This document shows positions 5,134 to 62,653 of a DNA stretch of 64,000 bases, piece by piece. Within the stretch, counting starts at the first letter, position 1. Each line of letters opens with the position of its first letter. The position numbers and the translations under genes were made by a program. This DNA comes from a virus, in the IMG/VR virus record IMGVR_UViG_3300030119_000552, positions 1 to 64,000 of that record; one strand, given 5' to 3'. Below the pieces are notes generated by a model, which was not told the DNA's origin, made no database searches, and saw only the letters and a list, made by a program, of their open reading frames with translations.

Positions 5134-5502
5134 ATGATTAAAACACTTCTCGCAAAGTTATTTCGCAAAAAGTTGTACAAAGCAGAAGTATTGTTGGTAG
5201 AGGATGACTTTATTGCTGAGTATCACAATGACAAACTTGGAAACTGCCTTGCGTGGACATTAAACGGATTACAAGAAGCACATAATAGCAACACTGATAG
5301 TAAAATGTCACATACAAAGGGTGTATATGGACGTATAATGCCTTTAAAAGTTATAAATGTAACTCAATCCTCAATCGGTATAATGTCATATAAGAAGCCG
5401 TGTTCTGAGGACTATTTATTTATGACTGATACAATGATTCATGTACCAGAGTCGGTTTTAAAGATTGCAAGAAAAGAAGAACCTGACTTAAATTTTAAAT
5501 AA
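5134..5502 (+). CDS. 122-residue protein of unknown function
   Basis: I do not recognise this protein. It has a basic, amphipathic N-terminus (MIKTLLAKLFRKKLYKAE), then a mixed alpha/beta-looking body with no catalytic pattern. It overlaps the end of the convergent glutamate dehydrogenase gene by 8 bases and is divergent from dnaJ. The N-terminal helix could be membrane-surface associated, but there is no true transmembrane segment. Confidence 0.6.
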   Translation: MIKTLLAKLFRKKLYKAEVLLVEDDFIAEYHNDKLGNCLAWTLNGLQEAHNSNTDSKMSHTKGVYGRIMPLKVINVTQSSIGIMSYKKPCSEDYLFMTDTMIHVPESVLKIARKEEPDLNFK

Positions 5503-6838
5503 TTCCATGTGCAATAGCTGCATTTGCTACTCGTAAAAAACCACCTGCATTTGCACCCAAGGTATAATCACCTTCTGCTCCGTATTTTCGTGCGTGTTTC
5601 AAGCATAAATTGTGTATTTGTTTCATGATTGCTCTTAGTTTATTATCAACTTGAGGGAATGACCACTTATCCCATCCTGCGTTCTGACGCATCTCTAGTG
5701 CTGATACTGCTACTCCACCTGCGTTTACTGCTTTGGAGGGAGCAACTACCACTAATTTGTCATTAAAGAGTTTTATTGCTTCTTCTGTACATGGCATATT
5801 AGCTGCTTCTACAACAAACTTACAATCATTATCAATGAGCATTTCCGCATCTTTTTCTGTAATTTCGTTTTGAATGGCACTTGGAATTGCTATATCACAT
5901 TGCACTTCCCAAGGTTTTCTGCCCTTGATATAGTCCACTCCGAATTTTTCTGCGAATGGTTTTACAATGTCTTTGTTACTTTCACGAAGAACTTCCATAT
6001 AAGGAATCATGTTCTTTTTGATACCATTCTTCATGTGTACATATCCGTCTGGTCCTGATATCGTTACTACTTTTGCACCCATTTCAACTGCTTTTTTTAC
6101 AACTCCAAACGATACTTGACCGAAACCACTAACAGTAATAACTTTTCCTTTAATATCTGTATGATGATTTTTAAGCATCTCTTCTGTAAAATAAATCGTT
6201 CCAAATCCAGTTGCTTCTTTTCTTCCATGAATCCCACCCCAAGCTGGTGATTTACCTGTTAGTAGACCTGGTTCATATTTACTATGTAATGCCTTATACT
6301 GACCAAATAAATACCCTATCTCTTTGTATCCGACCCCAATGTCACCCGCAGGTACATCCGTCTTGTGGCCGAGGTGGTCGTGCAGTTTAGTCATAAACGA
6401 CTGACAGAATCTCATAATCTCTAAATCAGATTTTCCGTTTGGATCAAAATCACTACCTCCTTTTGCTCCACCGATTTGTAATCCAGTTAAACTATTTTTA
6501 AAAGTTTGCTCAAATCCAAGAAACTTCATTGTTCCTAAATTAACACTTGGATGGAATCTCAATCCACCTTTATATGGACCAAGCACACTATTGAATTGAA
6601 CACGATATCCACGGTTAACATGAACATTCCCTATTTCGTCAATCCACGGAACACTGAATACGATTTGTTTTTCTGGTTCGGCAAGCCTTTCAAGTAGATT
6701 TGCTTTTTTGAACTGTGGATGTTTTGCAATAACATTGTGTAAACTTGAATAAACTTCGTTTACTGCCTGTATGAACACGGGTTCTGAGTGGTTCTTTGCT
6801 TCAACCTTTTTAATTACGTCATCAACGTATTTGCTCAT
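5495..6838 (-). CDS. gdhA: glutamate dehydrogenase, GPDG-type copy
   Basis: Full-length hexameric glutamate dehydrogenase (447 residues, the size of E. coli GdhA). It interconverts glutamate with 2-oxoglutarate and ammonia using NAD(P). Substrate and catalytic residues are present: Lys90 in [11 protein letters not shown], Lys126 in [12 protein letters not shown] and Asp166 in PAGDIGVG. The Rossmann region contains SGFGQVSFG, followed by ISGPDGY, whereas the neighbouring copy has SDSSGY there; this region contacts the cofactor, so the two may differ in cofactor or regulation (inference). It lies 18 bases after the stop of the second copy, in one operon. Glutamate dehydrogenase is not a usual phage gene, and two divergent intact copies are striking. 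Confidence 0.95.
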   Translation of the reverse strand: MSKYVDDVIKKVEAKNHSEPVFIQAVNEVYSSLHNVIAKHPQFKKANLLERLAEPEKQIVFSVPWIDEIGNVHVNRGYRVQFNSVLGPYKGGLRFHPSVNLGTMKFLGFEQTFKNSLTGLQIGGAKGGSDFDPNGKSDLEIMRFCQSFMTKLHDHLGHKTDVPAGDIGVGYKEIGYLFGQYKALHSKYEPGLLTGKSPAWGGIHGRKEATGFGTIYFTEEMLKNHHTDIKGKVITVSGFGQVSFGVVKKAVEMGAKVVTISGPDGYVHMKNGIKKNMIPYMEVLRESNKDIVKPFAEKFGVDYIKGRKPWEVQCDIAIPSAIQNEITEKDAEMLIDNDCKFVVEAANMPCTEEAIKLFNDKLVVVAPSKAVNAGGVAVSALEMRQNAGWDKWSFPQVDNKLRAIMKQIHNLCLKHARKYGAEGDYTLGANAGGFLRVANAAIAHGII

Positions 6839-6856
6839 GTATATAACTATATTTTT

Positions 6857-8239
<1,383 letters not shown>

Positions 8240-9622: not shown

Positions 9623-11551
9623 ATGGCTAAAGTAATTGGCATTGATTTAGGTACATCGAACAGTTGTGTTGCGGTGGTAGAAGCAGGAGAACCAAAGGTG
9701 ATAACCAACTCAGAGGGAGCAAGAACTACCCCAAGTATAGTTGGATTTGCAAAAGACGGAGAAAGACTTGTAGGTCAGTCCGCAAAAAGACAAGCAATCA
9801 CTAATCCAGAGAATACAATTTTTTCAGCGAAACGTTTAATCGGAAGAAAATACAAGGAAGTAAAAGACGAAGTTAAAAATCTTCCTTATGAAGTTGTCTC
9901 GGGTAAAAACGGAGACGCATATATCAAGTGCAATGATGGTGGTGAAGATAAAGAATATGCACCCGAGTTTATTGCGAGTATTGTTCTCGGTAAGTTGAAA
10001 GCAGATGCAGAATCATATCTTGGTGAAGAAGTAAAACAAGCAGTTATTACTGTACCTGCATACTTCAATGATTCACAAAGACAAGCAACCAAAGACGCAG
10101 GTGAAATCGCAGGACTTGAAGTATTGCGTATCGTTAACGAACCAACAGCTGCATCACTTGCATATGGATTAGAAAAGAAGAACGAAGAAATTATTGCAGT
10201 TTACGACCTTGGTGGTGGAACTTACGATGTTTCTATTTTGGAAATCGGTGACGGAGTATTTGAAGTTAAGTCTACCAATGGTGACACCCAATTGGGTGGT
10301 GACAATTGGGACGAAAAACTTATTCAATATTTGTTGGACGAATTTAAAAAAGATTCTGGTATTGATTTAAGTAATGATGGACAGGCAATGCAACGTCTAA
10401 AAGAAGAAGCAGAAAAAGCAAAGGTTGCGTTATCGTCTAGTGCGTCCACCGAAATTAATCTTCCGTTTATTACTGCGGATGCAAGTGGACCAAAGCACTT
10501 GAATGTAGAAGTTACTCGTTCAAAGTTTGAACAAATCTGCGATTCTTTATATGCTCGTACAAAAGAACCATTTGAAAAGTGTCTTGATGATGCTGGTATT
10601 ACAATGGAAGAAGTTAATAATCTCATTCTTGTGGGTGGTATGACTCGTAGTCCAAAAGTTGTAGAAATTGCAAAAGGACTAGCAGGAGGCCGTGACCCAA
10701 ACCAAGGAGTTAATCCCGATGAAGTGGTTGCATTGGGTGCAGCTATTCAAGGTGCTATTCTTGCGGGTGACGAGGGTGTTAGTGATGTTTTGTTGCTTGA
10801 TGTGACTCCTCTTACTCTCGGAATTGAAACCGCAGGTGGTGTGTCTACTCCAATGATAGAACGCAATACTACAATTCCAACCAAGAAGTCGCAGATATTT
10901 TCAACTTATGCTGACAACCAACCGGCAGTTGATATTGTAGTTCTTCAAGGTGAACGTTCTATGTCTGCTGATAATAAAAATCTTGGTACATTTAAGTTAG
11001 ACGGTATCGTTCCTGCACCAAGAGGTACACCACAAATTGAAGTTACATTTGATATTGATGCAAATGGTATTCTCAATGTAAGTGCAACTGACAAGGGTAC
11101 TGGTAAGGATCAGAAGATTACCATTAGTAATTCGTCTGGACTTGATAAAGACGAAGTTGAAAAAATGAAGGCAGATGCAGAAAAATATGCCGAAGAAGAT
11201 AAGCAAAAGAAAGAAACCATTGAGTCTAGAAATGAACTTGATAATTTGTCATATCAACTTGAAAAGTTTGCGGATGAACACAAAGACAAACTTTCGGAGG
11301 ATGATAAGTCTGAAGCAGATTCTTTGTGTAAGGAAGTAAAAGAAACATTAGAATCCTCTGATACTTCAACGGCCTTTATTAAAGAAAAAAACGAAAAGGT
11401 TGTTGCATTGCTTCAGAAACTCGGAGGTAAAATACAACAACAAAAACAAGAAAATCAACAAACTCAACATAATTCTAATGCAGAAAACCAATCCGAGGAA
11501 ACGGAAGATGTAGTTGATGCAGATTTTGAAGTTGTTGATGATAAGGAATAA
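9623..11551 (+). CDS. dnaK: DnaK (Hsp70) chaperone
   Basis: Complete 642-residue Hsp70. The N-terminus begins [15 protein letters not shown] (phosphate loop 1), with [11 protein letters not shown] (phosphate 2) and [11 protein letters not shown] (adenosine region) further on. The substrate-binding domain, helical lid and a Q/N-rich linker lead to an acidic end resembling DnaK (VVDADFEVV). It folds or remodels proteins with DnaJ (gene at 3904) and a nucleotide exchange factor; no GrpE gene is seen here, so host GrpE may be used. A clear Shine-Dalgarno site (AGAGGAA) precedes the ATG. The leader is unusually long for this genome and carries twin repeats (9548-9587). Likely role: folding of abundant phage proteins or replication-complex remodelling (inference). 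Confidence 0.97.
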
Positions 11552-12481: not shown

Positions 12482-12679
12482 ATGAAGAAGTATAACAAAA
12501 TAGATGTTATAAGAAGAATGGAAGACAGAGCATATCGTCTAAGACACCGAAGGAGTGAAGGATTTGACGATGAATCTTTAGTTTCTGAATGTATTATACA
12601 AGAAATAAAATATTTATTTAGAATGCTAGATAAGCAAACTCAGAAAGAAGTATTAAACAAACCATGGCTAGATCAATAA
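12482..12679 (+). CDS. 65-residue helical protein of unknown function
   Basis: A small, charged, probably all-helical protein (MKKYNKIDVIRRMEDRAYRL at the start). It follows a terminator and an ATATTTAT box, opening a new transcription unit whose next genes are the phosphomannomutase and cytidylyltransferase. It overlaps the phosphomannomutase start by 16 bases. An alternative start is ATG 12476, two codons upstream. No family recognised. Confidence 0.6.
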   Translation: MKKYNKIDVIRRMEDRAYRLRHRRSEGFDDESLVSECIIQEIKYLFRMLDKQTQKEVLNKPWLDQ

Positions 12680-13362
12680 ATTACGTATTTGATGTTGACG
12701 GAACTCTTACTCCCAGTAGATTAAGAATGGATAACGAGTTTAGAAAGTTTTTTAGAAACTGGATAAAAGACAAAAATGTTTACCTTTTAACTGGTTCAGA
12801 CCACGATAAAACAATAGAACAGGTAGGTGTAGATGTTTGGAGAGAAGTAACCGAGTCGCACCAATGTGGTGGTAATGTAGTATATAGACAAGGTGATTTA
12901 ATTGAAGTTAGTAAGTGGCAACCAAGTAAAAGTTTAATTGATACTTGTCAAAATCTGATTGATATTAGTAAATATCCTGTTAAAGCAGGTAATCACATAG
13001 AAGAACGTGTGGGTCTTCTTAATATTAGTGTAGTTGGTAGAAATTGTACACAAGAACAACGAATTGCCTACAATGAATGGGACAATTTGAATCGTGAACG
13101 TGAGTTTATATGTAAATCACTTACAACCATGTTTCCCGAATTAGAAGCAACTGCTGGTGGTCAAATAAGTATAGACATACATGAGTATGGAAAAAACAAA
13201 TCTCAAATACGAAGAAAACTTGATGGTGTAATTTATTTCTTTGGAGATAAAACTGAGAAAGGTGGTAACGATTATCCAATTGCAAGTATACTAGAAGAAC
13301 CAGACAAAGTATTCCAAGTAGATGATTGGGAGCATACATATAAGCTTTTAAAGGAAATTTAA
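12664..13362 (+). CDS. phosphomannomutase, eukaryotic PMM/HAD type
   Basis: A HAD-superfamily protein whose motifs match the eukaryotic-type phosphomannomutase group (PMM1/2), which converts mannose-6-phosphate to mannose-1-phosphate. Motif I is FDVDGTLTPSR with the two catalytic aspartates. A GGQISIDI segment lies near residue 165, and FFGDKTEKGGNDYP near 200 holds the last HAD motif. Length is 232 residues, typical. The neighbouring cytidylyltransferase and the mannose-6-phosphate isomerase-type cupin at 50411 suggest a shared supply of activated sugar for the phage glycosyltransferases (inference). Confidence 0.85.
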   Translation: MARSINYVFDVDGTLTPSRLRMDNEFRKFFRNWIKDKNVYLLTGSDHDKTIEQVGVDVWREVTESHQCGGNVVYRQGDLIEVSKWQPSKSLIDTCQNLIDISKYPVKAGNHIEERVGLLNISVVGRNCTQEQRIAYNEWDNLNREREFICKSLTTMFPELEATAGGQISIDIHEYGKNKSQIRRKLDGVIYFFGDKTEKGGNDYPIASILEEPDKVFQVDDWEHTYKLLKEI

Positions 13363-35315: not shown

Positions 35316-36458
35316 ATGAAGTCCGAAAATATTGTTTGTGAAGAGTGGAAGGGGTATCGTCCCAATATGCCTGTTCAAGTTGTTGGTGTAAAAAACGGAA
35401 AGATTACATCCAATGGTGGTGGAGTTGAAGTATTTAAAAATCTCAAGGATGCACAGAAAAAGTATTCAGACCTTGATCATGAAGAAAATTCAAAGAGATT
35501 CACTTGGGTTATGCGAGGAGAGGTCAATGGAAAAGATGCCGGACGATTTGAAACATGGCAAGCAAATAAAATGTATTCTATGGAAGAGCAAACATTCCAA
35601 GATACAATGAAAGAAGCAAAATTTAATTCTCGTATTCTACCTGCTAATGTGGAAGACCTTGAAATGAAAACTTTAATTGTTGCAATCGGAAGTGCAGTTG
35701 TTGGGTTGCTAGATAAAATAAAAAAGAACACGGGATCAAATGCTAATCCAGTAAGTTTGCAAGTTATCAAAGGTGGAGATGCTATTAAATCTGCACTAAA
35801 AAGTCAAATGGATTTGAAAGGTAAAGATGCTCTTGTTGCGTTCTTCAAAGAAACAAATAAACACTTTGATGCGTCTGCTCCTGTTATATCAAGTATAGTG
35901 AGGAAATATAAATTGAAATCAGATAAGTATAGTGGTAAGGTATTCGCAGAACAAGAAACAAAATTACGTGAACTTGTTCGTGGTTATTTAAAAAAGATGT
36001 CAGAAAAGGTAGATGTAAACATTCCTGATAACATAGTTGATTTACAGGATCGTATTGCCCAAAAGAAGAACGATGTTTTTTGGTGGGAAAAGCAATTACA
36101 GAAATCAAGAAAGAATAGTTTAATTGCGATGCGGTCAATGCACCACCAACAAGCAAAGAAAGATTTAAAAGATTTGGAAAAAGCACTTAAAAAAGCACAA
36201 AAGAACGAGTCAACCGAAGAACCGATTGAAGAAGCAAAGAAAAGTAAAATGATTCCTATGGAAAAGTACGGAGCTGCCTTTATGGTTGATAATGGAGTTC
36301 TTTTATCTGTTCCTATGTTGCGTGATGGTGGGTTTGAAACCTTTGGTGGAGAACTTGATTGGGGTGAAGTAACTGCTCCGGAATCTCAAAAATTTCTTGA
36401 TGACATCAACAAAAAATTTAAGACGAAGTTCAAAATGAATGACTTCGCAGGTAGATAA
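35316..36458 (+). CDS. 380-residue protein of unknown function, possible virion protein
   Basis: N-terminal region strand-rich with repeated glycines, a hydrophobic helix near 118-130 (LIVAIGSAVVGLLDKI), then a lysine-rich helical stretch (about 230-305) that looks coiled-coil, and a compact C-terminal segment ending FKMNDFAGR. Not a recognised family. Its own AT box and its place in the plus-strand block with other large unknown proteins suggest late expression. The stop overlaps the SET-domain gene start. Confidence 0.65.
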   Translation: MKSENIVCEEWKGYRPNMPVQVVGVKNGKITSNGGGVEVFKNLKDAQKKYSDLDHEENSKRFTWVMRGEVNGKDAGRFETWQANKMYSMEEQTFQDTMKEAKFNSRILPANVEDLEMKTLIVAIGSAVVGLLDKIKKNTGSNANPVSLQVIKGGDAIKSALKSQMDLKGKDALVAFFKETNKHFDASAPVISSIVRKYKLKSDKYSGKVFAEQETKLRELVRGYLKKMSEKVDVNIPDNIVDLQDRIAQKKNDVFWWEKQLQKSRKNSLIAMRSMHHQQAKKDLKDLEKALKKAQKNESTEEPIEEAKKSKMIPMEKYGAAFMVDNGVLLSVPMLRDGGFETFGGELDWGEVTAPESQKFLDDINKKFKTKFKMNDFAGR

Positions 36459-36787
36459 TGTATAAATTGGGTGAATCCAACATTCACGGGCATGGTTTAA
36501 TTGCTACTGAAGATATTGAACCAAATGTAGATATTGGATTAAGTCATATTGGTATTGGTTTGGTGAATGGAAAAGTTGTTGCCGGTGAAGCAACCGATAT
36601 AGGCAATTTTCAAAATCATAGCAATACACCAAATTGTGTTAATAGGATTGTAGACAAAGACCTACATATGGTTACCACACAAACAGTAAAATGTGGAGAC
36701 GAATTGACTGTAAATTTTTACGAAAATACAAATATTTGTGTTAACATAGAAAACTCCGAAAGTTGGAATAAAAGTCAATTTTTATAA
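36458..36787 (+). CDS. SET-domain protein (putative lysine methyltransferase)
   Basis: The 109-residue protein is a minimal SET domain. The N-terminal SNIHGHGLIATEDI (7-20) matches the start of SET folds, NHSNTPNC (53-60) is the SAM-binding/knot motif and GDELTVNFYE (80-89) matches the GEELTxxY end motif with the catalytic aromatic position. SET enzymes transfer methyl groups from SAM to lysine side chains of proteins. Bacterial and phage SET proteins of this compact size have poorly known targets. It is coupled to the preceding gene (ATG overlaps the stop). Confidence 0.8.
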   Translation: MYKLGESNIHGHGLIATEDIEPNVDIGLSHIGIGLVNGKVVAGEATDIGNFQNHSNTPNCVNRIVDKDLHMVTTQTVKCGDELTVNFYENTNICVNIENSESWNKSQFL

Positions 36788-36801: not shown

Positions 36802-37131
36802 ATGGGAAATAAAAAAGAATTTAGTGGGAAACCTTTTACAAAAGAAGATCGTGAACAATCACTTCAAGATATTCTTCCGTGTGAGATGGATGATAAAAGA
36901 ACCGTGTGCAATGTTGTTAGATTAATTTATCAATCTGCACAAGATGAAGCATATAATCTTGGTGCTATTCGTGAACTTGCCTTAGAAGCAATGTGGATGG
37001 GAAAACGAATGAATGATAAGTTAGAAAAAAATCGTCAAGAACAAATGTACGAAGAGTATATAAACCAAGACGAAAGTGATCTCAACTATAATTCTGATAT
37101 GTACGATCTTGCTCAAGGAAACTGGGATTAA
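36802..37131 (+). CDS. 109-residue acidic protein of unknown function
   Basis: A charged, mostly helical protein with an acidic, asparagine-rich tail. No motif recognised. It has its own AT box and lies before the lipase-GDPD fusion gene. Confidence 0.6.
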   Translation: MGNKKEFSGKPFTKEDREQSLQDILPCEMDDKRTVCNVVRLIYQSAQDEAYNLGAIRELALEAMWMGKRMNDKLEKNRQEQMYEEYINQDESDLNYNSDMYDLAQGNWD

Positions 37132-37162: not shown

Positions 37163-38716
37163 ATGACTAAACCAACTTGCTCAGACGAAACTTGCTCATA
37201 TCCAGAGACGTGTGACTGGAATAATATGTGTATGGCAGACCAATTAGAAATAGGTAATGAAGTAAGAATGTATGAAACCTCAATTGATAAGATTGGGGTT
37301 CTTTTGTGTCATGGTTTTTTATCAAAGCACGAACAGATGGTCCCACTCAGCAATTATATATACGAAACACTTGGTTGGGAAACAAGTTTGGTTGAACTAA
37401 CTGGACATGGTTATGATGAAGAAAATATTACAAGTGCAACTTGGTCTGATTGGGTGGATGACGTAAAAACCAAGTATTTGAATCTCAAACAAAGATGCGA
37501 TAAAGTTTACATGATTGGATTTTCGTTGGGTGGTTGTATATCTGCATATGTTGCAAGTTTGAAAAGCATCAAACCCGAAGGACTGATAATCATAAACGGA
37601 GTGTTTGGTGTAAAGAATGTTTTCAATAAACTTCTTCCTGGTGTTATGATATATAATAAAGTTTGCAAAAAGTTAAAACTACAAAAGATTATGTTGGAAT
37701 CCATTACCAATGATAGTGAGGCACCTGATTTGAACCAACCTCTTGTCAATTTATATGCTACAAACGAACTTCGTAAGATGTCCAAAATTACAGGCACTAT
37801 ATTGAAAGACATAAGATGTCCCACTTTCTTGATTCAGGAATATAACGATCCAACTGTATTTTATGGAAGTGGGAAACGAGCATTTAAAAAATTGGGTGCA
37901 ACCTTCAAAAGATTTCACACAACAAAACTGAATACCCACCTTACCATTTACGACAAAGGAATGGAGTGTAATGTATTTTGTAAAATTTTGGAGTTTCTGA
38001 AAGATGTTGAAAAAGACACATTTCTAAATATTGCTCACCGTGGTGCAAGTGGTGATTTTACCGAAAACACATTACAGGCATTTGAGGAAGCAATTCGACG
38101 TGGGTGCGATGCTATTGAATTTGATGTACAACCAATTGGTAATCAATTCCGAGTATTTCACGATGATAACTTTAAAAGAATGTTTGGTGTTGATAAAGAT
38201 TCAAATAAAATAAAAGAAAGTGAAGTAACCAAGTTGGTTTACCCAAATTTAGAAAAAATACCCACACTACAAGAAGCACTTGATTGTATTGCAGGTAGAG
38301 TTCACATAAACATTGAGATAAAGAGTTCAGAAGTTGCTACAAACATTGCTAATATTACAAGAACTTATCTTAAAAAACCAGAGTGGAACAACAAAGACAT
38401 AGTACTTTCAAGTTTCAGTAATGCCACTGTTAATATGCTAAGAAGACATTACAAGGAATTAAAGTTATCGTACTTGGTTTACGATCACTATTGTAATTTA
38501 AAAGATATGAAAGTTTTGAAAAGCAATTACTTTAGATATAATCTTCATTCTCTGAATCTTCCGTTGGAAGGTATTACACCTGAAATTGTAGAGTATTGCA
38601 ACAAAGATAATATACAGATATATGTATATACCGTAAATGAAACTAAACAAATTCGTTATTTAAGAGAACTTGGTGTAAGTGGAGTATTTACTGACTTTCC
38701 AAGATTGATACGATAA
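37163..38716 (+). CDS. alpha/beta hydrolase fused to glycerophosphodiester phosphodiesterase
   Basis: Residues ~40-280 form an alpha/beta hydrolase of the monoacylglycerol-lipase/carboxylesterase type: LLCHGF (oxyanion), GFSLGG with Ser121, and a late His in LNTHLTIYDK. Residues ~285-517 form a GDPD domain: AHRGASGDFTENT with His292, Arg293 and Glu301, then IEFDV with Glu319/Asp321 and His333 in VFHDD. The pair could deacylate a (lyso)phospholipid and then cut the glycerophosphodiester to glycerol-3-phosphate plus alcohol (inference). The N-terminus carries four cysteines (6, 11, 17, 23) that may bind metal. No signal peptide, so the substrate is probably reached from the cytoplasm or after lysis. 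Confidence 0.88.
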   Translation: MTKPTCSDETCSYPETCDWNNMCMADQLEIGNEVRMYETSIDKIGVLLCHGFLSKHEQMVPLSNYIYETLGWETSLVELTGHGYDEENITSATWSDWVDDVKTKYLNLKQRCDKVYMIGFSLGGCISAYVASLKSIKPEGLIIINGVFGVKNVFNKLLPGVMIYNKVCKKLKLQKIMLESITNDSEAPDLNQPLVNLYATNELRKMSKITGTILKDIRCPTFLIQEYNDPTVFYGSGKRAFKKLGATFKRFHTTKLNTHLTIYDKGMECNVFCKILEFLKDVEKDTFLNIAHRGASGDFTENTLQAFEEAIRRGCDAIEFDVQPIGNQFRVFHDDNFKRMFGVDKDSNKIKESEVTKLVYPNLEKIPTLQEALDCIAGRVHINIEIKSSEVATNIANITRTYLKKPEWNNKDIVLSSFSNATVNMLRRHYKELKLSYLVYDHYCNLKDMKVLKSNYFRYNLHSLNLPLEGITPEIVEYCNKDNIQIYVYTVNETKQIRYLRELGVSGVFTDFPRLIR

Positions 38717-38730
38717 AGTTGTTTTAATAT

Positions 38731-38743: not shown

Positions 38744-40300
38744 ATGGATGTTGTCCAACACTATTTGTCGGGATTTGATTTGCACGAAGTTACTTCTAAT
38801 TTAAAAGAATTATTGCACGAAGCTGCCACTACAAATGCTTCGGATGCCGAGGTTGCTATTTGTGTTGCGTACAACATCAAACAAGGTAAAAAAGAAGCAG
38901 ATGCTCTTAAATCAGCAGGTGTAGACAAAGCAACTTGGAAAAAGATTAAAGCAAACAAAGCAGTATACAATGCAGGTAAAAAAGTTGCGAAAGGATTAAA
39001 AAACATCGGTGGATCATTAACATGGTCTGGTAAAACATCTGCTACTACATTTTACAAAAGTGGAAAAAAAGAAGCAGGTAAAGCAGATATAATTGGTAAT
39101 AATCGCAATAGACTTTCTGTAAAACAAGCAAGCAGTTCTGCAAAAAGTGCTCAACTTGTTAGTGGTACGTCTGGTGAAGCAGTTGGATTATTCGAATATG
39201 CGGTAAAGCATTTAGAAGCAAGTGGAAGAAAACTTGCAAATGATTCCGAGTTAAAAGATTTATTTGACATACTTGAAAAAGAAATGGCAAAAGCAGTTCG
39301 CAATGACATCAATGTTGAAGTTGGAAAGGGTAAAAAAGATTTTCGTGATTGGGTAATTGCCGACAGTGGAAGGTATGATGAAGTTAAAGCAAAAGCAAAA
39401 AATGCGACTGACGAAGAAATCAAAAGACATATTCGTGCAGAACTTGCGGTTGCAAATGCTATATCTAATGCCGATGCTCCAAAACTTGAAGGTGATTATA
39501 TAAAAGGAGTTAAACCTATTACTCAAAAGCAGATTTCTAAAATGAGAGCAGATTATATTGGTTCGGATATGAAGATTGGTGATGTTACTATTGCAAAAGA
39601 CTATCTCGAAAAAGCAAATGTTCCGTCTGAATTATTAACCAAAGAAGCACTTAGAACACAAATAATGGATTTGATTGATGTGGCATTAAAAGCAGATTCT
39701 TGGAAAAATCGTATTCGTGAAATTATACAAAACAACTCGGAACTTAAAAAGTGGATCGTTTACGAGGCTGCAAGTGGTCTTGGAAAGTTTACAGGTAAAG
39801 CATCTAAAGGTGGAAATTATTTTGGTGATAATGTTGCAGTTGCAAATAAAATACTCGTATTTGATGCTAATGGTGTAAAAAAAGTACATGACCTGTACAA
39901 ATGGTCGCAAAGCAACGGAGATTTGTGTAATAATGTTGATATAAGTTTCAAAGGAAGTGGAAGACGTAAATTTGTAAAATTTGGATTGGCTGCTGAATCA
40001 ATAGAAAATGATATTAGTAATATCATCAATGAACAATATTTTGAATTTGAAAAACAACTTAAAGTTTTGAACGAAGGAAAAGTTTGGGATACCATAAAAA
40101 GTGGTTTTGATTCTGCTTCGTCTTGGGTAAAATCTTCTTATGAAAAAATAGAAGCATTAATTTTACAATTCTATGAAAGTGTAATAAAGAAAGTTCTTGA
40201 TTACTTTTGGGAACTATTTCAAAAAGGATTAAGTCCAGTTTTAGAAAAAATGGGATATATTATGGAAGGAGTTGTTTCTTTATCTGTTCCCATTTGGTGA
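38744..40300 (+). CDS. 518-residue probable virion/internal protein (paralogue 1 of 3)
   Basis: The first of three consecutive large proteins whose N-termini share a pattern (here MDVVQHYL). The middle is K/A-rich and helical. Near residue 345 it has VYEAASGLGKFTG, matched in the next protein by FEAATGSVKFGD. Around 390-405 a DISFKGSGRRK segment recalls the D...K core of PD-(D/E)XK nucleases. The C-terminus is amphipathic and W-rich with a hydrophobic stretch at the very end. Function unknown. A capsid-packaged protein is the best guess from context. Confidence 0.65.
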   Translation: MDVVQHYLSGFDLHEVTSNLKELLHEAATTNASDAEVAICVAYNIKQGKKEADALKSAGVDKATWKKIKANKAVYNAGKKVAKGLKNIGGSLTWSGKTSATTFYKSGKKEAGKADIIGNNRNRLSVKQASSSAKSAQLVSGTSGEAVGLFEYAVKHLEASGRKLANDSELKDLFDILEKEMAKAVRNDINVEVGKGKKDFRDWVIADSGRYDEVKAKAKNATDEEIKRHIRAELAVANAISNADAPKLEGDYIKGVKPITQKQISKMRADYIGSDMKIGDVTIAKDYLEKANVPSELLTKEALRTQIMDLIDVALKADSWKNRIREIIQNNSELKKWIVYEAASGLGKFTGKASKGGNYFGDNVAVANKILVFDANGVKKVHDLYKWSQSNGDLCNNVDISFKGSGRRKFVKFGLAAESIENDISNIINEQYFEFEKQLKVLNEGKVWDTIKSGFDSASSWVKSSYEKIEALILQFYESVIKKVLDYFWELFQKGLSPVLEKMGYIMEGVVSLSVPIW

Positions 40301-40328: not shown

Positions 40329-41954
40329 GTGGACATTGTAGAGCATTTTATCAAAAATATTGATTCATCTTTTGAGGTAGATGATATTTTATGCGAACTT
40401 GCATTACATGATTTATTCAAAAGAGACAATAAACAAAGGTTTATTGATAAGGTTGATAACAACGAAATGCTTGATGATAAAAATAATCCACTTAAACTAA
40501 AAAGTGGAACTACATCTTTATGGAATGATATGAAAAAACAACTTTTATCTGCGAAAGATAAAGACGGAATATCTGATTGGGGTGGTCGTGGTGATACTAA
40601 AATAAAACAACTATTTGGTGTACCTATCAGTAAAATAGGCAAATCACAGAATGATATGAGTGGTGGTGCTAGTAGTGGAAATCCAAGTGGTGAAGATTGG
40701 GAAGCAATGATTGCTATTGGACTTGCCACTATTGAAAACAAAGACCCGTCAAAAGAAGTGCCAGATGAATGGTCACGAATAGAAAGAAAAGGTTTTTGGA
40801 ATAGTGATTTTAATCGTGACATTGCCGAAAAACTTGCAACTGCATTTAAAAAGAATGGATACAATCCAATTTCTCAAACAGGAAGTGGAAAGGGTGGTGC
40901 TGGTGTATCAGGTGAGTGGGGAGATATTTATAAAGAATACGGAAGTGGTTCTATGAACAAAACTCCGAAGACTGACATTAAAGGTGGGTCAAAGAAAATC
41001 TCTTTAAAGAAAGCAGGTGGTTCTCAAGCAATGAGTGCCAAGCAAGCAGAAGCAGCCGCAACATTTGGAGCAGCCGTTAGAATGTATGGCAAGAATTATC
41101 CAAGTAGTGTTAATACTATTTTAGATAAATTTAAAACTTCTGTGTTGGATTTATCTGATAGTAATTATCGTGGAAGCATTGATGCTCTTGAAAAAGATAT
41201 TAAAAGTAGTCAAGGTGATCCAAAGAAAATGAGAAATTTAAAACCCGTGATCGACAATTTAAAACAAGCACGTGACGATGGTAAGTTTATTACTTCGGAA
41301 ATGAATCGTGTATTTTTGTCTGATTCTAAGTTCAAAAATTTATTTGTATTTGAAGCAGCCACCGGTTCTGTTAAATTTGGTGATACATCAGAAAGTCGTG
41401 CTGATACAATGGTTGAAATTGATACTGATAGTGGTAAGATTACATCTCAATATAAAATGGACACACCAAATGACATTTCTTCTCTTGCCAATCAATACAA
41501 GTTTTATTTGTCATTCAAAACAAGTGGTAATAGTGTTCCTTATATGGCACTGCGAGGGAATATGGAACAAGACCCAAAGAAGGTTACGGGTTGGATGAAA
41601 AATCAACTAATGGAAAATAAAAACTTTTCAACGATATGTCCAACTTTTTTCAACATCATTAAAGAAGGATTTGAACAAGATGCTTTTGGTAAAAGACTTT
41701 TAAATGAATCAAGTTTTCAAAATCTAAACGAGTGGCAAATGCTAAAAAAAGTTCGTGACGGAATTACTTCTGTTAGCAACAAAGTAAAAGACCGTTTTGT
41801 TAAAATTTGGAATTGGATTTCTGAAAGAATATCCAAGGCATTTGATTGGATCAAAAAACAAGGTGCAAGAGCATTAGAATATTTGCAAAAGTTTTTTGGA
41901 ATCAAACTTGACAAGTGTGGAATAAGTGGAAAGTTAGAACTCTTTTCAAAATGA
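40329..41954 (+). CDS. 541-residue probable virion/internal protein with SLK motif (paralogue 2 of 3)
   Basis: The GTG start at 40329 is inferred from the AT box and from the resulting N-terminus VDIVEHFI, which aligns with its neighbours; an ATG at 40272 lies inside the previous gene. Near residue 215 it reads NKTPKTDIKGG then KKISLKKAGGSQAMS, which resembles the D...S-x-K core of PD-(D/E)XK nucleases. FEAATGSVKFGD (near 340) is shared with paralogue 1. The C-terminal ~70 residues are amphipathic and aromatic (IWNWISERISKAFDWIKKQG). Possibly a packaged nuclease. The stop overlaps the next ATG as ATGA. Confidence 0.65.
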   Translation: MDIVEHFIKNIDSSFEVDDILCELALHDLFKRDNKQRFIDKVDNNEMLDDKNNPLKLKSGTTSLWNDMKKQLLSAKDKDGISDWGGRGDTKIKQLFGVPISKIGKSQNDMSGGASSGNPSGEDWEAMIAIGLATIENKDPSKEVPDEWSRIERKGFWNSDFNRDIAEKLATAFKKNGYNPISQTGSGKGGAGVSGEWGDIYKEYGSGSMNKTPKTDIKGGSKKISLKKAGGSQAMSAKQAEAAATFGAAVRMYGKNYPSSVNTILDKFKTSVLDLSDSNYRGSIDALEKDIKSSQGDPKKMRNLKPVIDNLKQARDDGKFITSEMNRVFLSDSKFKNLFVFEAATGSVKFGDTSESRADTMVEIDTDSGKITSQYKMDTPNDISSLANQYKFYLSFKTSGNSVPYMALRGNMEQDPKKVTGWMKNQLMENKNFSTICPTFFNIIKEGFEQDAFGKRLLNESSFQNLNEWQMLKKVRDGITSVSNKVKDRFVKIWNWISERISKAFDWIKKQGARALEYLQKFFGIKLDKCGISGKLELFSK

Positions 41955-43060
41955 AAAATATAATTGAGCACTTCTTAGAAAAAAATGTATCTGAGGCATA
42001 TAATATTGTTCCAAATTCTGTGGAAGAAATTGATTCACTCAAAAATACCGCAGTTGATATTGAAACTATAAAGTCGGTTTATTCTTATATATTTTCTAAA
42101 AACTCTTCACTTGCAAACCCTATTGCAGTTAGTTCCAATTCGAAAGAAAAACACATAAAAGTTGCAAGAGACATTGCGGACGATTTCGATTTAAATTCAC
42201 TATCTAAAAAGTTCGGAGTTAAGTTAACGGCAGGTGACGGTTCACGTGGTCGCCGTGGTTCAAATAACCAAGGAACTGGGTTTGAGAAGGATCTTGTAGA
42301 CGATATAAATCTATTCATCGAAGAGGGAATTGAGTCAACGTCGTTCAAGTATCCATCTTTAATACAAGACTTGTATAAAGACATACTTTCCAAACACAAA
42401 AGCATTCAAGTTAATTTAGAGGGAGGTGCTAACACAAAACGACCACTTGAATTTACCGAGATAGGTGCTGTTATAGGTGGTACTGCAATTAACGTTGGTC
42501 ACGTGGTTACTGATGTTACTATAATCGGTGACGGAACTACATACTACTATTTATCTCTAAAAAGCTCAGGTACCGTCACCTTTTTCAATTGTGGTGTCAG
42601 AAAAATTTTAACAAAAGACCAATTTGAAAATGGAAAAATTACTAACAAAAATGGAAAAACAATTTTAGATATGTTTGGTATTGACGAGAAAAAATTTATT
42701 AACATTTTTCAATCATATAAAGGTAAAACAAAAAAACGTAGTAAAAAAGAAACCGAGGATGTTACTTCCAAGGTAAACAAAAGATCTCTTCACAGAATGT
42801 TGCTCACTGGAATTGGATATGGATATTATATGCTTCATAAACGAGGAAAGAATGTTGAATACTATAAAATGAATGTGGCAAATCTTAAAAAATCTGTAAA
42901 AGTTAAGAAGGTGGTGATTCTATGGCCTGCTCCAGGTTCTGCAAAAAGAATTGATATTCAGATTTTAACTGACAAGTATGTGTTTAAGGTAAATATAAGA
43001 AATAAACAGGGTGGTTTATATCCTACTCACATTATGTGTGATTATAGGTATATACAATAA
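41951..43060 (+). CDS. 369-residue protein with nuclease-like SLK core (paralogue 3 of 3)
   Basis: Begins MKNIIEHFLEKN, the third copy of the shared N-terminal pattern. Residues ~110-120 (GTGFEKDLVDDIN) supply an early acidic helix, and TDVTIIGDGTTYYYLSLKSS near 190-210 has the D then x-L-K spacing of a PD-(D/E)XK active site. This is the clearest nuclease-like core of the three. The C-terminal half is lysine-rich and strand-rich. Start 41951 (ATGA overlap with the previous stop) is preferred to an upstream ATG at 41915. A restriction-like or packaged nuclease is possible; no family name can be given safely. Confidence 0.65.
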   Translation: MKNIIEHFLEKNVSEAYNIVPNSVEEIDSLKNTAVDIETIKSVYSYIFSKNSSLANPIAVSSNSKEKHIKVARDIADDFDLNSLSKKFGVKLTAGDGSRGRRGSNNQGTGFEKDLVDDINLFIEEGIESTSFKYPSLIQDLYKDILSKHKSIQVNLEGGANTKRPLEFTEIGAVIGGTAINVGHVVTDVTIIGDGTTYYYLSLKSSGTVTFFNCGVRKILTKDQFENGKITNKNGKTILDMFGIDEKKFINIFQSYKGKTKKRSKKETEDVTSKVNKRSLHRMLLTGIGYGYYMLHKRGKNVEYYKMNVANLKKSVKVKKVVILWPAPGSAKRIDIQILTDKYVFKVNIRNKQGGLYPTHIMCDYRYIQ

Positions 43061-61909: not shown

Positions 61910-62653
61910 ATGTCAAGCAAGAAATCAAAAACAGTTACAAAAAACTTAATTCACGATTGTCACTTGCAAGATAATATGAGAAGCAATCAACTTACTCGGA
62001 AATTGCAAATCAAGCATAAACCGTTTACAGACAAACAAAAAGCATTCATTGATATAGCTTTAAATGAGAATACAAAAATGATGTTTATTCAAGGTCCTGC
62101 TGGATGTGCGAAAACCTATTTAAGTGTATATTGTGGTCTTGAGTTGATAAGTAATGCAAAAGTTAGTGAACTTGTTTATATTAGAAGTGCAGTAGAAAGT
62201 GCTGATTCCAAGTTAGGATTCCTTCCGGGAGCACAAGAAGACAAGATGGCTCCTTATTTAGAACCATTTAAAGATAAACTTGAAGAATTTCTATCAGCAG
62301 TTGATGTAAGGTATTTACAAGAAGAAGAAAGAATTTATGGAATTCCTGTGGGATTTCTAAGAGGTGCAAGTTGGACAGATAAGTTCGTTATATTAGATGA
62401 AGCACAGAATATGACAGAAAAAGAACTTATAACTACTATGACAAGAATAGGTGAAAACACTAAAGTTTTTATATGTGGTGATGTCATGCAAAGTGACATT
62501 GGAAACAAAGGAGGATTGAAAAATATAATTGATCTTTTCTCCGATGATGAATCAAAAAGTAAGGGAATTTTTAACTTTGAATTTGACGAAGAAGACATAA
62601 TTCGGTCAGAACTAGTAAAATTCATAGTCAAGAAGATAAAAAGTTTAAGGTAG
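61910..62653 (+). CDS. phoH: PhoH-like ATPase
   Basis: 247 residues of a PhoH-type P-loop NTPase: IQGPAGCAKTYLS (Walker A, 62-69), YIRSAVES, LGFLPG and FVILDEAQNMT (Walker B), then ICGDVMQSDIG. PhoH is widespread in marine and T4-like phages; its function is uncertain, possibly RNA-linked helicase or NTPase. AGGAA precedes the ATG. It is a common marker gene, consistent with a large T4-like phage. Confidence 0.95.
   Translation: MSSKKSKTVTKNLIHDCHLQDNMRSNQLTRKLQIKHKPFTDKQKAFIDIALNENTKMMFIQGPAGCAKTYLSVYCGLELISNAKVSELVYIRSAVESADSKLGFLPGAQEDKMAPYLEPFKDKLEEFLSAVDVRYLQEEERIYGIPVGFLRGASWTDKFVILDEAQNMTEKELITTMTRIGENTKVFICGDVMQSDIGNKGGLKNIIDLFSDDESKSKGIFNFEFDEEDIIRSELVKFIVKKIKSLR

Follow-up and report, generated by a model that had tools for sequence, protein, structure and literature searches.

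The DNA stretch analysed here (hereafter the window) covers positions 1 to 64,000 of the IMG/VR virus record IMGVR_UViG_3300030119_000552. On its forward strand, it carries a gene that joins an alpha/beta hydrolase to a glycerophosphodiester phosphodiesterase (GDPD). The open reading frame starts with ATG and has limits at exactly 37163-38716 (+). The locus comprises the following features:

36802..37131, + strand: upstream neighbour gene (109 aa), which precedes the fusion gene in relatives
37163..38716, + strand: fusion gene (517 aa; cysteine cluster, alpha/beta hydrolase, GDPD), from its open reading frame, Pfam and 10 other viral contigs
37178..37231, + strand: four-cysteine cluster C6, C11, C17, C23 (C-x4-C-x5-C-x5-C)
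37298..37957, + strand: alpha/beta hydrolase domain, residues 46-265, from Pfam PF12146 and alignment to monoacylglycerol lipase
37523-37525, 37847-37849 and 37937-37939, + strand: hydrolase triad S121, D229 and H259
38036..38704, + strand: GDPD domain, residues 292-514, from Pfam PF03009, alignment to 2pz0 and a fold match
38744..40300, + strand: downstream neighbour gene (518 aa); this or a similarly starting gene comes next after the fusion in relatives

An earlier note on this DNA, made from the sequence alone, had described a single chain combining an alpha/beta hydrolase, recognised by its GFSLGG motif, with a complete GDPD. In agreement, both domains match their Pfam families above the gathering cut-offs (Hydrolase_4, PF12146: E 5.3e-15, 55.8 bits versus a cut-off of 27; GDPD, PF03009: E 7.8e-34, 118.3 bits versus 23.6), and the expected motifs are present in the 517-residue protein, with GFSLGG at residues 119-124 and HRG at 292-294.

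Full-length fusion proteins with 60-81% identity to the window protein are encoded in 10 other IMG/VR contigs, four of which were recovered by a whole-protein scan of viral contigs and six more when a segment of the hydrolase domain served as the query; an extra profile scan of viral contigs returned the same ten copies. The fusion is uninterrupted in all of these contigs and its neighbours match, which rules out a host gene or an assembly chimera. Rough pairwise dN/dS values, obtained where synonymous change was estimable and with many pairs near saturation, are ~0.03-0.13 for the hydrolase and 0.11-0.29 for the GDPD domain. These values are well below 1, and purifying selection thus acts on both domains. 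Together with the invariance of the catalytic residues and cysteines, this shows that the fusion is neither a chance open reading frame nor a chimera confined to one contig.

The surroundings of the gene are also conserved. In the loci read, the product of the small upstream gene (~109 aa) ends in AQGNWD or a similar sequence, and the large downstream proteins begin with MD(V/I)(V/I)(E/Q)HY(L/I); neither neighbour in the window has a Pfam or PHROG match. Inspected by eye, the successive proteins at 38744, about 40330 and 41951 (+) share similar starts (MDVVQHYL, MDIVEHF and MKNIIEHFL); a capsid-targeting leader common to packaged proteins is one possible reason. A gene for a small SET-domain protein (36458-36787, +; PF00856, E 1.5e-7) lies two genes ahead of the fusion and is kept in several relatives. 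The virus itself is T4-like, as indicated by a PolB-type DNA polymerase that shares 47% identity along its full length with the enzyme of Microcystis phage Mel-JY01, and by a protein at 41915-43060 with relatives in Synechococcus phages. Mel-JY01 does not appear in the set of phage records that matched the fusion at any point.

Outside the fusion, the most surprising feature of the window is probably a pair of glutamate dehydrogenase genes, unexpected in a phage, which lie in tandem at 5495-6838 (-) and 6857-8239 (-) (ELFV_dehydrog, E 1.2e-76 and 4.8e-88). The two genes recur in related viral contigs, one copy with 89-91% identity in five of the ten. The window further encodes a DnaK (Hsp70)-like protein of 642 aa (9623-11551, +), which has a full-length match to phrog_22485 and ~58% identity to dnaK elsewhere, and a eukaryotic-type phosphomannomutase (12664-13362, +; PF03332, E 2.2e-28), near which sugar-nucleotide and glycosyltransferase genes are found.

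The N-terminal four-cysteine cluster pointed out in the earlier note is present, with all four cysteines invariant in the 11 copies. It is embedded in the most rapidly diverging part of the protein (residues 1-40; 28-42% identity between distant copies), where Y13, P14 and N20 are also kept. Such invariance within a fast-changing segment suggests that the cluster is probably important for function. Searches of the window, of the related viral loci and of the phage records found no relatives of the cluster.

The GDPD domain carries a complete set of predicted active site residues. H292, R293, E319, D321, H333, E385 and K387 are invariant in the 11 copies and, aligned with 2pz0, provide two catalytic histidines, the metal-binding Glu/Asp/Glu and a lysine. 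All catalytic and metal residues are thus common to the fusion and the bacterial GDPDs (PF03009; UgpQ; 2pz0 and 1o1z). Consistently, GDPDs rank first in a PDB fold search with the AlphaFold model (2pz0, target TM-score 0.82), and phage and giant-virus GDPD proteins make up most of the top of a viral-library fold search, with alpha/beta hydrolases lower. The model has a mean pLDDT of 60.8, and its GDPD part lies mostly at 70-93. The best NCBIfam name for the domain is UgpQ-type PRK09454 (NF006989), with a score of 75.1 bits that lies far below the equivalog cut-off of 264. The best cellular matches, which are stand-alone GDPDs, share about 29-36% identity with it. The bacterial GDPDs compared here likewise stand alone, whereas the phage GDPD is joined to a hydrolase. 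Cytosolic UgpQ has no signal peptide, and hydrophobicity analysis similarly revealed neither a signal peptide nor a transmembrane segment in the fusion protein. Two Bacteroidota proteins of ~520 aa (L078 and L079) resemble the phage fusion in having a C-terminal GDPD, but their N-terminal domain appears by eye to be of the endonuclease/phosphatase type, unlike the phage hydrolase.

Some GDPD-fold enzymes act as lysophospholipase D, and two entries in the fold search (7ym0 and 8ghh) belong to this kind. The phage GDPD might accordingly produce lysophosphatidic acid, with the hydrolase trimming that or another lipid in the course of host membrane remodelling. We regard this as unlikely, since both entries rank under ordinary GDPDs and the NCBIfam model for lysophosphatidylglycerol phospholipase D gives 24.9 bits where its cut-off is 450.

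GDPD domains encoded by phages are known from other contexts. The domain matches phrog_16641, a tail-fibre family (E 6.5e-31), and, in both sequence and fold searches, the central spike of phage phi812 (9eul), and one could thus imagine a virion depolymerase like the GDPDs with which staphylococcal phage spikes attack cell-wall polymers. This reading is highly improbable: the matches are limited to the GDPD domain, and no tail, spike, fibre or baseplate sequence was recognised by Pfam or PHROG in the fusion protein or the neighbours scanned. A GDPD gene of a Microbacterium prophage has previously been assigned to phosphorus acquisition from its sequence (PMC9030533). The tail and spike GDPDs and this prophage enzyme share with the fusion a phage-encoded GDPD, but no phage record searched combines the hydrolase and GDPD at one place over 80% of the query.

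In the hydrolase domain, the 11-sequence alignment contains a Ser-Asp-His triad with a GxSxG elbow, formed by the invariant residues S121, D229 and H259; in a HMMER alignment, the last two fall on the catalytic Asp and His residues of the Bacillus monoacylglycerol lipase. A loss of the catalytic Ser or His, which the earlier note had named as refuting its proposal, is therefore not observed. The AlphaFold model is poor in this part, with pLDDT <50 for residues 146-220 and 226-271, and monoacylglycerol lipases reach target TM-scores of only ~0.55-0.60 in the PDB fold search, whose entries include a D196N mutant of the Bacillus enzyme. Given the poor model and the low rank in the fold search, identification of the hydrolase rests on sequence, and the model was left out of claims about the pocket.

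Comparison with cellular proteins relates the phage hydrolase to a specific bacterial group. Among the cellular matches listed, the best lie in long proteins (L074-L077, L064 and L065-L067); together with L088-L091, these are bacterial proteins of ~550-900 aa that carry an alpha/beta hydrolase at the C-terminus. L074 matches residues 43-284 of the phage protein with 31% identity (E 6.6e-35), and Pfam places an acyltransferase domain (PF01553) in the N-terminal and Hydrolase_4 in the C-terminal part of L074, L064 and L077. Scored with a profile of the phage copies, these bacterial proteins reach 69-124 bits, and the alignment reveals a similar stretch in the cap (NDSEAPDLN in the phage, NDTESPDVN in L074). 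In a tree of 32 hydrolase domains, the phage sequences (support 100/100) group with the acyltransferase-linked ones (94/96), apart from a second group that contains the monoacylglycerol lipases and LipS; one row of this tree (L006) is wrongly labelled as acyltransferase-linked, its upstream stretch being a mere open frame. Because of the length of the phage branch (2.31), its exact sister is unsure and its function may have shifted.

From these comparisons, the phage hydrolase is placed in a lineage with the bacterial acyltransferase-linked hydrolases, not with the monoacylglycerol lipases. The Bacillus monoacylglycerol lipase (3rli and relatives) shares the fold family, the GxSxG elbow and the Ser-Asp-His triad, yet it scores only ~62-67 bits and falls outside this tree group. 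The PlsC-type proteins (L064 and L074-L077), on the other hand, have a hydrolase of the same lineage and the cap motif NDSExPDxN but differ in their partner, which is an N-terminal acyltransferase instead of a C-terminal GDPD; Pfam detects no N-terminal acyltransferase domain in the 517-residue fusion protein. The tie to PlsC-type acyltransferases points to a role in phospholipid turnover. We know of no tested substrate for the bacterial acyltransferase-linked hydrolases.

This placement bears on whether the two domains act in sequence. Alpha/beta hydrolases are promiscuous enzymes, and the solved sequence relatives of the phage domain are monoacylglycerol lipases and carboxylesterases. The hydrolase might hence act on other esters as a monoacylglycerol lipase, carboxylesterase or thioesterase, while the GDPD separately salvages existing glycerophosphodiesters. 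We consider this rather doubtful, because in the tree the phage domain groups with the acyltransferase-linked domains to the exclusion of monoacylglycerol lipases and LipS, and because the stability of the fusion in 11 copies suggests that the substrates are linked. Two consecutive steps are the simplest reading of a chain in which a hydrolase of the acyltransferase-linked lineage is joined to a GDPD, an enzyme for deacylated phospholipids.

The earlier note had also held that its proposal would fail if the same fusion were a common host gene, but no such gene was found in the bacterial genomes searched. No place in 50,697 phage records or 72,556 plasmids covers 80% of the fusion, and no match listed for 944 bacterial genomes (399 Pseudomonadota, 346 Bacteroidota and 199 Planctomycetota) spans both domains. 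A close-relative scan of 84,980 GTDB species genomes, the only one of these scans to cover Cyanobacteriota, likewise returned no fusion, and nine long open frames that matched one domain each lacked the other. Within these genomes, the idea of a common cellular fusion thus finds no support. The record MT835764.1 was rejected as a relative, as it matches residues 8-264 without the GDPD and looks bacterial. We found no paper on a hydrolase-GDPD fusion in a literature search that mostly did not extend to subscription journals. The combination is thus real, conserved and new in one phage lineage, although both enzyme families were already known; its novelty lies at the level of architecture and applies within the collections searched, namely phage, plasmid and bacterial genomes, with metagenome contigs outside this scope.

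The sequences ahead of the genes were inspected for signals of transcription timing. The late-type promoter TATAAATA is missing just ahead of the fusion gene on the coding strand. A different motif, ATATATATTTATT, occurs seven times in the window with up to one mismatch, versus 0.57 expected (sites 31620, 35299, 38727, 40313 and three more). At 38727 and 40313, it or its one-mismatch form stands just before the start codons of the genes at 38744 and about 40330, and in the relatives it is kept before the gene that follows the fusion; it may be a promoter or a translation signal. The fusion gene itself is preceded by a different AT-rich stretch, not by ATATATATTTATT.

The direct position of the fusion ahead of large genes that possibly encode virion proteins, together with its complete lipase-type triad, could be taken to indicate a lysis or membrane-damage effector that acts late in infection, helping release by degrading the inner leaflet. 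Such a role seems distinctly unlikely: besides the missing late-type site, the protein has no signal peptide or membrane segment, its GDPD contributes nothing obvious to lysis, and no recognised lysis gene adjoins it (Pfam, PHROG). The earlier note had also suggested an attack on the host membrane; such an attack from the outside is similarly unlikely, as neither export or membrane-spanning signals nor a tail context are present.

The absence of such signals instead suggests a cytosolic location, and we see an even chance that this T4-like phage lineage produces the fusion during infection as a bifunctional cytosolic enzyme for phospholipid degradation. In such a scheme, the S121/D229/H259 hydrolase would gain access to the host membrane at its inner face and deacylate lysophospholipids or phospholipids there, and the metal-dependent GDPD would then cut the resulting glycerophosphodiester into sn-glycerol-3-phosphate and the head-group alcohol. 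The products could serve lipid remodelling or the supply of phosphate, glycerol or acyl chains. We infer catalysis, substrate, coupling and the use of the products from the enzyme families. The earlier idea of acyl stripping followed by glycerol-3-phosphate release is compatible with the sequence, since both predicted active sites have their full set of residues and the hydrolase lineage is linked with acyltransferases in bacteria. A more specific version, in which the single chain forms a route from phospholipid to glycerol-3-phosphate, a putative metal site at the cysteines anchors or regulates it, and host lipid feeds phosphate, glycerol and acyl chains, is tentative. Phosphate recycling, which the earlier note had linked to PhoH, is plausible for the predicted enzyme. 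A PhoH gene is present at 61910-62653 (PF02562, E 1.8e-52), 23 kb from the fusion, and this is co-occurrence only; to our knowledge, the presence of PhoH in a phage does not by itself prove a phosphate-linked function.

The two domains are ordinary, but their joining and conservation in one phage lineage are not. The fusion also draws attention to the bacterial group of acyltransferase-linked hydrolases, whose joint function seems worth testing. If the two steps are coupled, a phage enzyme would take host phospholipid fully to a central metabolite, and the use of host membrane lipid as a supply by phages would become testable.
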